A DNA stretch of 64,000 nt from Clostridiales bacterium. Lineage in GTDB: Bacteria > Bacillota > Sulfobacillia > RBS10-35. Positions 40,708 to 48,074 of this stretch are shown piece by piece; positions within the stretch are counted from its first letter, which is position 1; each line of letters starts with the position of its first letter. The stretch covers positions 62,001-126,000 of the forward strand of contig JAHHQG010000030.1 of NCBI GenBank assembly GCA_018729555.1, given 5' to 3'. Made by a program: the position numbers and the translations under genes. The notes under the pieces are model-generated. The model was not told the DNA's origin, ran no database searches, and worked only from the letters and a program-made list of their open reading frames with translations.

Positions 40708-41292
40708 ATGATCAGTTACCTCTGGGGGCTCCTTCTTATCAGCGGCCTTGTCATCGGGATGGCCCAGGGCCATTTCACCGCCCTCAGCCAGGCCTTTTCC
40801 AGGGAGGCTGTCCATGCCGTGCAGGCGAGCCTGCAGCTGGCCGGTCTGGTGTCCCTTTGGTTTGGCATCAGCCGGATCGCGGAGGCATCGGGCCTGGTGG
40901 CCTTCCTCGCCCGCCTGGTGGCCCCTTTGATCCGCTGGCTCTTCCCCGGCCTTCCCCCCAAGCACCCCGCGTTGGGGGCTATCGTGTTGAACCTCACCGC
41001 CAATGGCTTGGGTCTTGGAAATGCCGCCACGCCCTTTGGTCTAAAGGCCATGGCCCACCTCCAGGAGCTCAACCCCCATCCCCATCGGCCGTCGGCCGCC
41101 ATGGTGACCTTCCTGGCCATCAATAGCGCCGCCATCACCCTGGTTCCCACCACCACCCTCGCCATCCGGGCCGCCAGCGGCGCCAGAGATCCCAGCGACA
41201 TCGTGGTGCCGGCTCTTATCGCCAGCGCCATCGCCCTTTTGGTCACCGTCTTCGCTCTTCTCCTCTGGCGCCTTTTCTGGAGGCCCACCTGA
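40708..41292 (+). CDS. spmA: Spore maturation protein A
   Basis: A 194-residue membrane protein with five to six helices and the nucleoside-recognition (Gate) domain: LTANGLGLGNAATPFGLKAM and FLAINSAAITLVPTTTLA. With SpmB it is needed for spore core dehydration in Bacillus. The ATG at 40708 is seven bases from AAAGGAGG; an ATG at 40702 is too close. The stop overlaps the spmB start by one base. Its last 40 codons lie inside the 907-bp repeat. Confidence 0.95.
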   Translation: MISYLWGLLLISGLVIGMAQGHFTALSQAFSREAVHAVQASLQLAGLVSLWFGISRIAEASGLVAFLARLVAPLIRWLFPGLPPKHPALGAIVLNLTANGLGLGNAATPFGLKAMAHLQELNPHPHRPSAAMVTFLAINSAAITLVPTTTLAIRAASGARDPSDIVVPALIASAIALLVTVFALLLWRLFWRPT

Positions 41293-42078
41293 TGGCCGCC
41301 TTTTCCCAGTGGATCCTCCCCTCCTTCGTCGCCCTCTCCGTCGCCCTGGCCCTCACAAGGCGCCTGGACATCTTTCGCCTCTTCATCGAAGGGGCGGAAG
41401 AAGGCCTGCGCCTGGTGGTGCAGATCTTCCCCTATATCCTCGGGATGTATGTGGCCATCGGCATCTTCCAGGCCGGGGGTGCCCTCTCCCTCCTGACCCA
41501 GGTCCTCTCCCCTCTTTTGGTCCCCCTCCACTTCCCTCCCGAACTTCTGCCCCTGGCCATCATCCGGCCCCTATCAGGAGCTGCTGCTCTGGGTTACCTG
41601 GTGCAGGTCCTGGAGCGCTTTGGCCCTGATTCTTTCACGGGAAGGCTGGCCAGCGTCATGCAGGGGAGCAGCGAGACCACCTTCTATGTCCTCAGCATCT
41701 ACCTGGGTTCGGTGGGAATCCGCCGAGCCGGAGCCGCCCTTTTCTTCTGCCTTCTGGGGGATACCGCCGGCCTTCTCTCGGCCCTTTGGGTGAGCCGCTG
41801 GGTATGGGGCGGATGATGGGACCAAGTGATCAAGAGACTGAATCGGCCCCTTAGACCGGGCCGTGGCCTTTCCTCACCCGTTTCACGATGGCCCTCCAGC
41901 CTCTTGCCAAGGGAGTCAAAGGGGTAGGGCAATCCCAGCAGCGATACTGAAGGAACAAGAGGAGACTGTAACCGATGCCGAGGGCCGCCCGGGTTTCATC
42001 GGCCCACCGGTCCCAGCCCGAGATGAGGAGAAAGATGGCCAACAGATTGACCAGGGCCAGAAAGGAGCGGCGCACCCA
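41172..42078 (+). repeat. 907-bp direct repeat, copy 1
   Basis: This segment appears identical to 44380-45286 (offset 3208). It covers the 3' end of spmA, all of spmB, the intergenic gap and the 3' end of the minus-strand membrane gene. Beyond 42078 the two loci remain alignable but diverge sharply, inside a codon-preserving coding region. That pattern indicates recent recombination or conversion between older duplicated cassettes. Confidence 0.95.
41292..41816 (+). CDS. spmB: Spore maturation protein B, copy 1
   Basis: A 174-residue membrane protein with the Gate domain: PYILGMYVAIGIFQAGGA, IIRPLSGAAALGYL and MQGSSETTFYVLSIYLGSVG. It works with SpmA in spore maturation. The ATG overlaps the spmA stop. 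An identical second copy lies at 44500-45024. It is convergent with the membrane gene at 41851. Confidence 0.95.
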   Translation: MAAFSQWILPSFVALSVALALTRRLDIFRLFIEGAEEGLRLVVQIFPYILGMYVAIGIFQAGGALSLLTQVLSPLLVPLHFPPELLPLAIIRPLSGAAALGYLVQVLERFGPDSFTGRLASVMQGSSETTFYVLSIYLGSVGIRRAGAALFFCLLGDTAGLLSALWVSRWVWGG

Positions 42079-42252
42079 GGGGTCCTGCCAGTAGATCCCC
42101 AAAAAAAGAGCTGCCAGCCCTCCTCCCATGAAGGGCCAAAAGAGTCCCCAAGAGGGCTGAAGCTGCGCCCCCAGGGCCGTTCCTACGGCGAGGACCATGG
42201 GAAGGAAGAACCTCCAGCCAGGTCCCTTCCGATCCATCGCCTTCGGGTTCAT
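41851..42252 (-). CDS. Small membrane protein of the PSW/GIYW family, C-terminal module alone
   Basis: A 133-residue membrane protein with about four helices. It shares with its paralogues the block PSWGLFW ... LGIYWQDPWVRRSFL (about 34-65), followed by a tail with CWDCPTPLTPLARGW. I do not recognise the family. The ATG at 42252 follows GGGAGGGTGGAGAC. It corresponds to the second half of the fused protein at 45059. The last 75 codons are inside the perfect repeat. It lies downstream of the precursor and first membrane gene; an immunity-type role is inference. Confidence 0.75.
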   Translation of the reverse strand: MNPKAMDRKGPGWRFFLPMVLAVGTALGAQLQPSWGLFWPFMGGGLAALFLGIYWQDPWVRRSFLALVNLLAIFLLISGWDRWADETRAALGIGYSLLLFLQYRCWDCPTPLTPLARGWRAIVKRVRKGHGPV

Positions 42253-42528
42253 GTCTCCACCCTCCCAGAGAAACCCCTCCGACCGATTTCCACCCACGTC
42301 CTCCGGTCTCCTCTTCCACACTTTCCTCCTCCGCCCCGGCTGCCAGAACGGTAATGCCTTGGCTCCAAGCAGGGGCCAAAGGAAGAAAGGCCCAAGTGTC
42401 CTACCCGGTGATGAAGGCCCGTTTCCTTCTCGGCCCTTTGGGATCCGCCCCCCGTCATCCCCGTCAGCCGTCCCGCGGACCTGACTTCCCGCCTCTCTCG
42501 CGTGGGACTCCGCCGGGTCAACGGACCG

Positions 42529-42903
42529 TCATGCATCGTCATTCTCATCACCCGGTGGACGATCACATCCCGCGCACCAAAACGTGAGAAGAAGAAACAG
42601 GCCAAAGCCCACCGCAAGAAGGCGCTTCTCTTCCGTTTCCCCGTGCCTCCACGCGCCAAAGAATCCTGGACTGGCAAAAAAGATAGCCATCAAGAGAAGC
42701 GCGAGGCGAACGTGGGGATGATCCCAGTAGATGCCCACGATGATGGCTCCCAGGGAAGCACCAAGGACCATCCACGTCTTCTCCCAGGAAGGAAAAGATT
42801 CCGCCAAATAACTGTAGGATAGGGACAAGAGGAGGAGAAAGAGGAGCGTTAAGCTCGGCAACGTTTTGGAAAGCTGCTTCCTCTCCTCGCTCCCTCGGGT
42901 CAT
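42529..42903 (-). CDS. Small membrane protein of the PSW/GIYW family, N-terminal module, coupled to the precursor
   Basis: A 124-residue membrane protein with about four helices: an N-terminal helix (about 12-32), then PSWEKTWMVLGASLGAIIVG, GIYWDHPHVR and a final helix ending in FWCAGCDRPPGD. It starts at 42903 with an ATGA overlap on the stop of the cysteine-rich precursor, so translation is coupled. It corresponds to the first half of the fused protein at 45059. Such a partner next to a toxin-like precursor suggests self-protection or export. No family is recognised. Confidence 0.75.
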   Translation of the reverse strand: MTRGSEERKQLSKTLPSLTLLFLLLLSLSYSYLAESFPSWEKTWMVLGASLGAIIVGIYWDHPHVRLALLLMAIFFASPGFFGAWRHGETEEKRLLAVGFGLFLLLTFWCAGCDRPPGDENDDA

Positions 42904-43574
42904 CGGATGACCATCCTTAAAGGCTCCAAAGAATTTGCGCAACGGCCTTGGCATCCACCCCACCCCGGGTCCATCCCACCGCCCCCACCAGTGCCGCCCG
43001 CTGCACACGCTTCCTCGCAATAGAGGGCACCAACCAACCCATACCCCAATGCCCCCCACCCGGCGCAGATCGGAAGTCCCGCTCCAGTCAGCAGGCTAAC
43101 GATGCATGGCGACGAAACGAGAACATAGCAGGCTGCGCCGCAACCTTGCACCCCACTCTTTGGAGTCGGCTCCCGGCCAGGCCCCTGAGATATGTCATTC
43201 AGGTCGTATGGGACATATCCAGTGAGCATCTCTTCTCCCAATTGCACGTGCGTGAACATCCCACCGTCTGGGGCACTCGAACCCGTCACCCGCAGAGTCG
43301 CAAGCACATGGTCTGTCGCGGACGAGTACACGACTATAACGCCGAGGAACGCCAGGGTTTGCTCCGAAGCCGGGATGAAGATCTCCAGGAGATCTCCGAC
43401 AGGTTGCGCGAATCCAACATCCTTCTTCAACCGGTCAGCATCCCTGCCCAACCCATCAATCTCTTGGAGGACTGCATCAGGCAAATCCACTAGGACATCA
43501 AGCTGTACCCCGTCGGAAGCAGCGCTGGGGGGTTGACCCAACGTAAACATTAAGAGCAACACGACGGCAACCAC
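42900..43574 (-). CDS. Secreted precursor with C-terminal eight-cysteine domain, copy 1
   Basis: Read from GTG 43574, the 224-residue protein has a hydrophobic signal segment (about 1-20, ending QPPSAAS), an N-terminal region of about 120 residues, and a C-terminal region starting GCGAACYVLVSSPC. That region has six cysteines among Gly/Ala/Leu-rich helices, a Gly-rich linker, and two more cysteines (GGCQGRCANS). The layout resembles halocin C8-type precursors. The homologous copy has about 29 more N-terminal residues; here they are in another frame (ATG 43663), separated by a one-base deletion near 43576. The n-region of the signal peptide is therefore lost if GTG is used. Confidence 0.7.
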   Translation of the reverse strand: MVAVVLLLMFTLGQPPSAASDGVQLDVLVDLPDAVLQEIDGLGRDADRLKKDVGFAQPVGDLLEIFIPASEQTLAFLGVIVVYSSATDHVLATLRVTGSSAPDGGMFTHVQLGEEMLTGYVPYDLNDISQGPGREPTPKSGVQGCGAACYVLVSSPCIVSLLTGAGLPICAGWGALGYGLVGALYCEEACAAGGTGGGGGMDPGWGGCQGRCANSLEPLRMVIR

Positions 43575-43671
43575 CTCCGAGCGCGTTTGCTCGCGAAGTT
43601 TCCATCCTGGCGCAGATCGTGGAACAGGCCTTTAGCCACAGCACGTCCCCCCATCTCCTCCATGATGCTCC

Positions 43672-43701
43672 ACTATACGAACCTTACCTGGGGGCTGTCA
43701 A
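43672..43701 (-). promoter_or_regulatory. Promoter reading into the copy 1 precursor
   Basis: On the minus strand TTGACA (43701-43696) and TATAGT (43677-43672) are 18 bases apart, a near-consensus sigma-A promoter. Transcription would begin about 43665, next to ATG 43663, so the message would be almost leaderless. The -35 box falls next to the transposase stop codon at 43684, in sequence that may belong to the IS end. Confidence 0.65.
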
Positions 43702-44300
43702 ACCTTGGCCGGCTCTGCACGCCAATAAGTGTGGCGCCAGTTCCAAGAGAAACCCTGGCAGGAGGCCCAAAAGCATCATCTTGCGGATATAGGTTTCCGC
43801 GTTCCTGAACCCGTAACGCAAACGTTTCAAGAGCTTGATCTTGGTGGGGGTGCCCTCGGTAAACCCCTTGGTGATGCGAAGGCCATGGAAAGCCTGAATG
43901 GCTTCTCGCCATGCCTTTAGCGTCCGCCCCCACTGCACCATCGCCACGTCTGAGGCGTCTTGGGTGTTGAAGCTGATCCGGTCTAAGAACACCGCCGCCT
44001 CTTGGCGGTCCTTGGCTTCATACACGGCCCGGAGCTCCTCCTTGACAGCATGAAAATGCCTCACGTTGGCATGGTTTTCGTAGATCCACCGGAGCTCTTG
44101 CGCCTGCCTTGGCGTCAGTTCCTCTTTTTCAAAAGGGGCCAGCGCGGCCGCCGGGTGACCTCCGTCTCCACCTTCCGGGCTTCTTCCGCCGGGGGGTTGG
44201 CATCCTGGATCACGTGGAACCGGTCCACCACCACCTTGGTATGGGGCAGCTGGGCATGAGTTTAAGCCGCCAGGCTTTCTTTATGTCGCTCCATACCCCC
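43684..44300 (-). pseudogene. ISL3-family transposase, N-terminally truncated and frameshifted
   Basis: The minus strand shows WSDIKKAW, VVVDRFHVIQDAN (catalytic region), then ELRWIYENHANVRHFHAVKE and the C-terminal block GFTEGTPTKIKLLKRLRYGF. The usual asparagine before GFTEG reads KGFTEG. A frameshift near 44265 and the missing N-terminal zinc finger make it inactive. It lies exactly between the two precursor cassettes and its upstream side ends at the second copy of the 907-bp repeat. Confidence 0.85.
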
Positions 44301-44379
44301 GCGATCGGTGCATCGGAACTTCCCCCATGACCCGGCGCTTCAGCACCCGCCGGACCCCTCCGTCTCCCGCCCCGGGACG

Positions 44380-44500
44380 CGCCAGCGGCGCCAGAGATCC
44401 CAGCGACATCGTGGTGCCGGCTCTTATCGCCAGCGCCATCGCCCTTTTGGTCACCGTCTTCGCTCTTCTCCTCTGGCGCCTTTTCTGGAGGCCCACCTGA
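44380..44500 (+). pseudogene. 3' fragment of spmA, second copy
   Basis: The last 39 codons of spmA (SGARDPSDIVVP to RLFWRPT) and the stop are repeated here without the rest of the gene. It marks the left end of the second repeat copy. Confidence 0.93.
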
Positions 44501-45024
44501 TGGCCGCCTTTTCCCAGTGGATCCTCCCCTCCTTCGTCGCCCTCTCCGTCGCCCTGGCCCTCACAAGGCGCCTGGACATCTTTCGCCTCTTCATCGAAGG
44601 GGCGGAAGAAGGCCTGCGCCTGGTGGTGCAGATCTTCCCCTATATCCTCGGGATGTATGTGGCCATCGGCATCTTCCAGGCCGGGGGTGCCCTCTCCCTC
44701 CTGACCCAGGTCCTCTCCCCTCTTTTGGTCCCCCTCCACTTCCCTCCCGAACTTCTGCCCCTGGCCATCATCCGGCCCCTATCAGGAGCTGCTGCTCTGG
44801 GTTACCTGGTGCAGGTCCTGGAGCGCTTTGGCCCTGATTCTTTCACGGGAAGGCTGGCCAGCGTCATGCAGGGGAGCAGCGAGACCACCTTCTATGTCCT
44901 CAGCATCTACCTGGGTTCGGTGGGAATCCGCCGAGCCGGAGCCGCCCTTTTCTTCTGCCTTCTGGGGGATACCGCCGGCCTTCTCTCGGCCCTTTGGGTG
45001 AGCCGCTGGGTATGGGGCGGATGA
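44500..45024 (+). CDS. spmB: Spore maturation protein B, copy 2
   Basis: A 174-residue protein identical to copy 1. It lacks an upstream spmA and its own ribosome context is only the spmA fragment, so it may be poorly expressed unless read through from the left. Perfect identity shows the copy is very recent or maintained by conversion. Confidence 0.93.
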   Translation: MAAFSQWILPSFVALSVALALTRRLDIFRLFIEGAEEGLRLVVQIFPYILGMYVAIGIFQAGGALSLLTQVLSPLLVPLHFPPELLPLAIIRPLSGAAALGYLVQVLERFGPDSFTGRLASVMQGSSETTFYVLSIYLGSVGIRRAGAALFFCLLGDTAGLLSALWVSRWVWGG

Positions 45025-45058
45025 TGGGACCAAGTGATCAAGAGACTGAATCGGCCCC

Positions 45059-45817
45059 TTAGACCGGGCCGTGGCCTTTCCTCACCCGTTTCACGATGGC
45101 CCTCCAGCCTCTTGCCAAGGGAGTCAAAGGGGTAGGGCAATCCCAGCAGCGATACTGAAGGAACAAGAGGAGACTGTAACCGATGCCGAGGGCCGCCCGG
45201 GTTTCATCGGCCCACCGGTCCCAGCCCGAGATGAGGAGAAAGATGGCCAACAGATTGACCAGGGCCAGAAAGGAGCGGCGCACCCAAGGATCGCGCCAAT
45301 AGGTCCCGAAGAAGATGGCTGCCAGCCCTGCTCCCACTAGGAAGCACGTCAAGCGCCAAGAAGGCAGGAGCTGCGCCGCCGAAGAGGACACCATTGTCAG
45401 GACCATGGGGACAAAGAATCTCCAGCCCGGTTTTTTCAGCTCCGCCGCCTTCTGGCTCACCTCGCTTTCGATAAGTTTCCTGTCGCACCCTGCGCAAGAG
45501 GCCAGCAAGAGGCCAAAAAGGGCAAGGCCTAGCAGGAGGAGCCCCTTCTCTTTGGCTCCCACGTGACTCCACGCGTCGAGAAGGGGAAAACCCGTAAGGA
45601 AGATGGCCATCAACATCAGGAAGCGACGAACACCCAAGCTGTCCCAATAGATGCCCACGAAAATGGACCCCATAGACGCTCCCAAACCCATCCAGAACCA
45701 TTCCCAGGATGGCCAAACTTGGACTAAGGACACGACAAAAAGGATCCACAGAAAGGGAAAAGCCAGCTCCCAACCCGGCCCAGCTGGAGAATTCCCTTTG
45801 TCCACCTCACCCATCAT
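45059..45817 (-). CDS. Two-module membrane protein of the PSW/GIYW family, fused form
   Basis: A 252-residue membrane protein with about eight helices in two homologous halves. The first half has PSWEWFWMGLGASMGSIFVG then GIYWDSLGVRRF and ends LLASCAGCDRK; the second has PSWRLTCFLVGAGLAAIFFG then TYWRDPWVRRSFL and ends with CWDCPTPLTPLARGW. In the other cassette the two halves are separate genes. The ATG at 45817 overlaps the copy 2 precursor stop (ATGA). The C-terminal 75 codons are inside the perfect repeat. Function unknown; immunity or transport is inferred from context. Confidence 0.78.
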   Translation of the reverse strand: MMGEVDKGNSPAGPGWELAFPFLWILFVVSLVQVWPSWEWFWMGLGASMGSIFVGIYWDSLGVRRFLMLMAIFLTGFPLLDAWSHVGAKEKGLLLLGLALFGLLLASCAGCDRKLIESEVSQKAAELKKPGWRFFVPMVLTMVSSSAAQLLPSWRLTCFLVGAGLAAIFFGTYWRDPWVRRSFLALVNLLAIFLLISGWDRWADETRAALGIGYSLLLFLQYRCWDCPTPLTPLARGWRAIVKRVRKGHGPV

Positions 45818-46562
45818 CGGATCATCTCCGCCAGCGGATCCACAAAATTAGCGCAACCCCTTGGGCAAGCCCCTGAACCAGGGATGCCCCCGCCGCTCCC
45901 GCCCGAACGTTCTGCGTTACACACGTAATGACATATAATTATGGTAACTGCCCCATACCCAGCAGTCGCCCCCAATCCCGCGCAAAGAAATGAATGGATG
46001 GCGCAGGGTACCAACTGAACGACTGCAAAACATGCCAATTCCCCCCTATACTGCAAGCTTCCACCTTACCTTTTGGCATCGACGCTGACCATGGAGCCTG
46101 GGACAAGTCCTCGAACCCGATCGGCACATGTCCCGAGACGATGTCCTCCCCCACATGGACGTGTAAAAAGGTGCCTCCGTCGGGCGCTCCACTCCCGGTT
46201 ACCCGATAGGCAGACAGCACTTCATCCGTTGCCGGTGAATAGAGCACAAGAAGGCCCATCAACTCCCAAGTTTGCTCCGAAGCCGGGATGAAGATCTCCA
46301 GGAGATCTCCGACGGGTTGCGCGAATCCAACATCCTTCTTCAACCGGTCAGCATCCCTGCCCAATGCGTCCATCTCTTGGAGAACTGCATCAGGCAAAAC
46401 CTCTAGGACATCGAGCTGTATCCCTTCGGAGGCCGCGCTGGGGGGTTGGGCCAACGTCAACATGAAGAGCAACCCGACGGCAACCACATACCGCGCGCGT
46501 TGGCCCGCGAAGTTTCCACCCTGGCGCAGATCGTCGAACAGGCCTTTAGCCACGGCATTCAC
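45814..46562 (-). pseudogene. Secreted precursor with eight-cysteine domain, copy 2, one-base frameshift
   Basis: From GTG 46562 the protein has an n-region with KGLFDDLRQ and QRAR, a signal segment ending QPPSAAS and about 120 further residues close to copy 1. Within GKVEACSIGG the frame breaks at a run of six G (plus-strand C 46041-46046). With one extra G it would continue ELACFAVVQLVPC ... LCAGLGATAGYG ... ICHYVC, a Gly/Ser linker and ACPRGCANF. All eight cysteines then align with copy 1. Without the extra base translation stops after QLP. The stop at 45814 overlaps the membrane gene. Confidence 0.72.
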
Positions 46563-47192: not shown

Positions 47193-47602
47193 TTGTCCAA
47201 ACCGAAAGTCGCCTACCTCGTCTCTTCCCCCCGGGCCGCCAGCTACCGCGTGGGCCAGATGATCCTTCCTCAGCTGGAAGCCGGCACCCACGGGGTGGAG
47301 GTGATGGCTATGTTCTTCTTCGACGACAACGTCTATGCCCTCCGGAAGGGCCATCCTTTGGGGGAGAGGCTGGGAGCTATCGCCAGAGAAAAAGGTATCC
47401 TCCTCATGATGTGCGATGCCTGCGCCCTGGAACGGGGACAGGCCGCCGGCGAACCCGGTGGTGCGCCCCGGACGGGAGAGGCCGCCAAGAACCGGGCCAT
47501 GTGGAACCTCTGGATACGGTGGAAGGCGTCCAGGCGGGCTGCTTTCCCGACCTGTACGCCGCCCTTTCGGAAAACCCGCCGGACTACGTCATCACCATCT
47601 GA
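47193..47602 (+). pseudogene. DsrE-like sulfur-relay family protein, frameshifted
   Basis: The first part reads KVAYLVSSPRAASYRVGQMI, MFFFDDNVYALRKGHPLGER and MMCDACALERG, a DsrE-like fold with a conserved cysteine pair. After about 47455 the frame must shift by one base; the other frame then continues WCAPDGRG, GHVEPLDTVEGVQAGCFPDL and ends PPDYVITI. One missing base restores a protein of about 136 residues. The TTG start has GGAGGAG upstream. It may be a true pseudogene or a sequencing error. Confidence 0.72.
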
Positions 47603-47603
47603 G

Positions 47604-48074
47604 TCACCGGGCTACGTCCACAAATTGGGCTCCCGTGGCTTTCTGAAGATCTCGGGGGTTTAGCCACAGCTGAACCCCCCTTCTCCCTGCGCTGATGCTG
47701 ATCCATTCCTTCTGCAAGGCCCCCTCGTGGATGTACACGGGGAGGGGCCTCCGGGTACCGAGGGGTGATACCCCTCCCCTCACATACCCCGTCACCCTTG
47801 TGAGGTCCGCGAGGGGCAAAAGCTCCACCCGCTTCACCCCCGCCGCCTGAGCCGCCTTCTTCTCGCTGAGCTCCTTATCCCCCGGAACGAGAAAAAGGGC
47901 ATACGGTTCAGGCTTACCCGGCTCCAAACGCACCGCCAAGGTCTTGTAGATCTGATCTAAAGGGATCCCCATAAGCTCTGCCGCTTCTTTGGCATCCCCC
48001 ACCACCGCCTCAATGGTGCGGACCTCGAAGGGAATCCCTTTCGCCTTCAAGATGCGGATGGCTGGCGTCTCCAC
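47604..48074 (-). CDS. YbaK/EbsC-family Cys-tRNA(Pro) deacylase
   Basis: A 156-residue protein of the YbaK fold: ETPAIRILKAKGIPFEV, VVGDAKEAAELMGIPLDQIY, KTLAVRLEP and YVRGGVSPLG. Members hydrolyse misacylated Cys-tRNA(Pro). The start GTG at 48074 comes one base after the stop of the transporter gene and matches the family N-terminus. Confidence 0.92.
   Translation of the reverse strand: METPAIRILKAKGIPFEVRTIEAVVGDAKEAAELMGIPLDQIYKTLAVRLEPGKPEPYALFLVPGDKELSEKKAAQAAGVKRVELLPLADLTRVTGYVRGGVSPLGTRRPLPVYIHEGALQKEWISISAGRRGVQLWLNPRDLQKATGAQFVDVAR

Follow-up and report, generated by a model that had tools for sequence, protein, structure and literature searches.

It is likely that copy 2, one of two tandem genes for secreted, cysteine-rich peptide precursors in the window (the whole 64-kb stretch of DNA that was analysed), is a recently inactivated paralogue, broken by a single insertion of about 11 bases after the codon for its first core cysteine (Cys1). 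As a lesion this is ordinary: a peptide gene apparently lost through a short indel. The chief value of the analysis is a correction, in that the run of G's at the break is probably a bystander, and copy 1 is unfit to serve as the intact reference.

The frame break in copy 2

The following features of copy 2, and the sequences with which they are compared, bear on the break.

45939-46562, minus strand: copy 2 precursor as now readable (leader, pro-region, Cys1, 33 out-of-frame residues, TAA)
46041-46046, minus strand: hexaguanine run, the 3' part of the frame lesion, read from the sequence
46033-46052, minus strand: the 20 bases that separate the codons of Cys1 (46055-46053) and, in the downstream frame, Cys2 (46032-46030), from the family comparison
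45814-46041, minus strand: copy 2 core stranded in another frame (seven cysteines), ending in the ATGA overlap
45059-45817, minus strand: copy 2 membrane protein, 252 aa, two homologous halves, putative immunity protein
42900-43574, minus strand: copy 1 precursor ORF, core intact, eight cysteines
44380-45459, no strand assigned: segment duplicated from 41172-42251 (spmB-like gene and 3' part of the membrane gene), 94.8% identity

The copy 2 precursor (46562-45939) starts with GTG. On the minus strand, positions 46046-46041 are GGGGGG, directly 3' of the first core cysteine, and the surrounding sequence reads GAAGCTTGCAGTATAGGGGGGAATTGGCATGT. Frame 0 proceeds through KVEACSIGG and then through 33 residues without a counterpart in copy 1, to a TAA at 45941-45939. 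The first-pass annotation had described six G's just after the first core cysteine (EACSIGG), with translation leaving the frame there and ending after about 30 more residues, and the existence of this break is confirmed.

Homology to copy 1 resumes in a second frame, at -1 relative to frame 0. This frame contains 75 codons without a stop from 46041 to 45817, and its translation, ELACFAVVQLVPCAIHSFLCAGLGATAGYGAVTIIICHYVCNAERSGGSGGGIPGSGACPRGCANFVDPLAEMIR, matches the core of copy 1 (BLASTP, 41% identity, E 2e-6, seven cysteines aligned). At 45817-45814 (ATGA), the TGA that ends this frame overlaps the start codon of the 252-aa membrane gene, the junction that the annotation had predicted for the downstream frame. 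We dropped the openness of the frame as proof that it is real, since order-1 random sequences matched in composition and length (75 codons) are open by chance in 13% of cases. We accept the frame because it is homologous to copy 1, its openness being weak evidence. Copy 2 thus has the marks of a pseudogene, a frame that is disrupted relative to its homologues with homology continuing in another.

Cysteine spacing and the origin of the lesion

The core of this peptide family contains three cysteine pairs. In copy 2, the gap between the first two cysteines is 20 bases, a net excess of 11 over the 9 bases seen in copy 1 and in three relatives from another genome of the class (G004). The first pair reads C-GAA-C in copy 1 and C-DLA-C, C-GVV-C and C-DAV-C in the G004 members; the comparison comprises copy 1 and the three G004 members that retain this pair, all three of them distant relatives in a genome other than that of copies 1 and 2. 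Three residues also separate the cysteines of the second pair (6 of 6 stretches) and of the third (all 5 stretches that reach it), and the second and third pairs of copy 2 conform. The longer first gap in copy 2 and a frame break in the copy 1 leader had both been missed by the earlier reader.

The excess is not in frame (2 bases by modulo 3), and no one-base change restores the family spacing. The annotation had proposed that a seventh G would return translation to a frame with all of the remaining cysteines aligned to copy 1. The seven remaining cysteines do align, but the result would be C-x7-C, with seven residues in the first pair, and not the conserved C-x3-C. A single slipped or missing G, as had been claimed, therefore does not account for the net excess of 11 bases.

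We favor one insertion directly after the Cys1 codon, which would comprise AGTATA and most of the G-run and give a net excess of 11 bases. Such an insertion would put the core out of frame and end translation 33 residues on, and the product of copy 2 would now be a secreted pro-region without a core. Decay in the neighbourhood (the break in the copy 1 leader, an ISL3 fragment, duplication of the spmB-like gene and a DsrE-like remnant that has further indels in a sister genome) is consistent with this reading, as are the G004 relatives, at least two of which are without a readable leader. Against it, a search of 84,980 GTDB species genomes with an alignment of the two copies found no close relative that would give the ancestral sequence of copy 2. 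In the 64-kb window there is no second AGTATAGGGG that could have been the source of the inserted bases, nor another copy of a 22-base stretch when up to three mismatches were allowed.

Alternatively, copy 2 might formerly have had a wider first ring (C-x7-C) and then have lost one G by ordinary slippage. A one-base indel would be no surprise in a G-run, and the downstream frame is indeed one base off frame 0. However, this history requires two events, an in-frame expansion of 12 bases (four residues) followed by the one-base loss, and C-x3-C is found in four of the four comparable members. We regard it as unlikely, and prefer the single insertion of about 11 bases because it is simpler.

The G-run in its sequence context

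The window is 65% G+C and contains 80 G or C runs of at least six bases. Within 24 long open ORFs (32 kb in total), selected on length and codon-position composition and for the most part without a family-search check, there are 34 runs of six and seven runs of seven, and the frames are unbroken. By this survey of the 64-kb window, the G6 in copy 2 is ordinary and expected from composition.

These counts bear on whether the break is an error of assembly or of sequencing, the latter having also been suggested in the first-pass annotation. The source is a metagenome-assembled genome (70 contigs, 7% contamination), near-identical repeats within the locus make consensus errors likelier there, and a sister metagenome-assembled genome breaks on either side of the locus. 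However, 41 G or C runs of six or seven bases were read without harm in the long ORFs, the lesion lies outside the 94.8% repeat, and the miscounting of a homopolymer does not produce an excess of 11 bases. An error is a quite improbable explanation.

The excess of 11 bases likewise argues against phase variation, in which slippage in the run would switch copy 2 between G6 (off) and G7 (on). The location of the run, within the coding sequence where the core begins, and the preservation of the downstream frame are what such a switch would have. In this respect copy 2 resembles the poly-G phase-variable genes of Campylobacter and Neisseria, in which a G-run also lies within the coding frame at the frame break. 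Reviews of phase variation require repeat numbers above those that base composition gives (PMC11868660), and in C. jejuni, polyG/C tracts are counted once they reach about seven units (PMC4965091). The tract in copy 2 is shorter than this, and no longer than composition predicts. Moreover, changing it by one unit does not toggle a functional product on and off, since the one-base state lacks the ring size of the family, and no relative has a G-run at that site. The switch proposed in the annotation is very improbable.

We give equally little credence to a programmed -1 frameshift or transcriptional slippage at A-GGG-GGG, which would yield both a short and a full product. The downstream frame is at -1 of frame 0, as this would require. 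However, the heptamer allows re-pairing of the A-site tRNA only, the relatives are without such a site, and the product would still have C-x7-C. Programmed frameshifting was rejected on the poor heptamer and on the lack of a stable structure downstream, where the RNA shows no folding advantage over shuffled sequence (z +1.26).

Age of the lesion and the state of copy 1

The lesion is probably fairly recent, and young relative to the duplication, because the stranded frame probably remained under constraint for most of the divergence of the two copies. Comparison of copy 1 with copy 2 gives a dN/dS of about 0.20 before the run (3' part of the pro-region) and about 0.33 after it; dS is 1.6-2.0, near saturation, so that the contrast is weak, and too weak for dating. 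Differences past the run fall 30/25/41 by codon position, a pattern that is only suggestive. These values fit the earlier claim, made from the preserved downstream frame, that the lesion is recent. Over their first 300 bases (dS 0.19) the two precursors resemble each other much more closely than they do further on. This similarity, between 43664-43355 and 46577-46268, points to gene conversion or recombination affecting the 5' ends.

Four further features concern the start of copy 1 and its membrane genes.

43575-43664, minus strand: copy 1 leader MEEMGGRAVAKGLFHDLRQDGNFASKRAR, out of frame with the remainder of the precursor, shorter by one base than in copy 2
42529-42904, minus strand: copy 1 membrane protein A, putative immunity protein, with an ATGA overlap with the copy 1 precursor
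41851-42252, minus strand: membrane protein B of copy 1, homologous to A
43650-44330, minus strand: ISL3-family transposase fragment abutting the copy 1 start, multicopy in the genome

Judging from its sequence, copy 1 falls short of a clean, intact reference. The leader is homologous to that of copy 2 and has one base fewer near 43577, and the first in-frame start of the ORF is a GTG within a signal-like hydrophobic segment. Copy 1 is doubtful as a reference because the leader is one base out of frame and an IS fragment abuts the start. Both copies therefore have frame problems, at different places, and copy 1 may be inactive too. An identical copy of the ISL3 fragment is found elsewhere in the genome, at G000:C20. 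At the junction of this fragment with copy 1 there is a promoter-like TTGACA-N18-TATAGT (sigma-70-like, 11 of 12 matches), which could drive copy 1.

Membrane genes and putative immunity

In both copies the precursor overlaps a membrane gene through ATGA. The combination of a secreted, cysteine-rich precursor and a coupled membrane protein is that of a bacteriocin with an immunity partner. Judged by architecture alone, the peptides are probably bacteriocin-like, and the coupled membrane protein probably confers immunity. The two membrane halves are one ORF in copy 2 (45059-45817) and two separate ORFs in copy 1 (41851-42904). Copy 1 proteins A and B are 28% identical to each other (E 2e-15), and B shares 83% identity with the second half of the copy 2 protein; the 3' half of the copy 2 gene falls within the duplicated segment of 94.8% identity.

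The membrane ORF of copy 2 is open. Ribosomes translating copy 2 would halt about 120 bases upstream of it, which should make its translation poorer. A cell with such a locus might retain immunity without making the peptide.

Relatives and known systems

Family relatives were found in only one other genome of the class, G004, at three or four places (L012 15453-16552, L009 1504-1914 and L013 138-836, including a tandem pair), and small membrane-type ORFs follow the relatives in L009 and L011. Besides G004, the 154 genomes of the class that were searched contained no close relatives, and neither did 397 other genomes of a phylum sample, viral contigs or plasmids. Weak matches in two genomes, G119 and G019 (E about 0.01), were set aside, as on inspection they had no clear core.

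Halocin C8 is made as a secreted precursor with a long pro-region and a C-terminal cysteine-rich core, and its immunity function is linked to the precursor. The halocin C8 family (TIGR04449, halocin_C8_dom) and similar secreted, cysteine-rich precursors share this plan with the peptides described here and have a core of similar size, whereas the immunity candidate here is a separate membrane gene. The active fragment of halocin C8 is C-terminal (PMC12893001). Membership of the halocin C8 family was rejected: TIGR04449 has no match in the source genome even at E 10, and it reaches 10 bits in G004, below the cut-off of 24. The precursors likewise have no Pfam or NCBIfam match over the curated cut-off. 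The locus resembles bacterial bacteriocin-locus pseudogenes in its tandem paralogues, frame lesion, IS debris and open, coupled membrane gene, and differs from them solely in its uncatalogued peptide family.

We tentatively suggest, as a possibility and not as our expectation, that the three C-x3-C pairs, glycine-rich linker, GC-xx-GCAN-type end and ATGA-coupled, two-module membrane protein define an undescribed family of secreted peptides in uncultured Bacillota. Such a family might turn over by duplication, 5' gene conversion and decay, with the membrane (immunity) gene staying open as the peptide is lost. Having no Pfam or NCBIfam name, it could merit description from intact members.

The surrounding locus

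The locus has the look of two tandem copies in decay, accompanied by IS debris and a duplicated segment. Within the 1.08-kb duplication, a short start of unrelated sequence is fused to the second spmB-like gene. The ORF at 47193-47663 is probably a pseudogene. Its end is in another frame, and at that place a different gap, of 4 bases, is present in a sister genome; we take the ORF to be DsrE-like, and it has no Pfam match.

In a genome of the same genus (G001), the locus is absent from the assembly. The contigs end at the duplicated segment and, at 47.4 kb, in the DsrE-like remnant, which is what breakage of the assembly by repeats would give. G001 was ruled out as a source of the ancestral copy 2 sequence, since its contigs stop on both sides of the locus. 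In the genomes G002 and G006, which are more distant, the flanking genes (MATE-like, spm-like and DUF72-like) are retained, separated by a short interval. This short interval, together with the repeats, indicates that the peptide locus occupies an insertion-prone interval. Third-position G+C is 0.51-0.66 in the peptide genes, compared with about 0.8 in the surrounding long ORFs.
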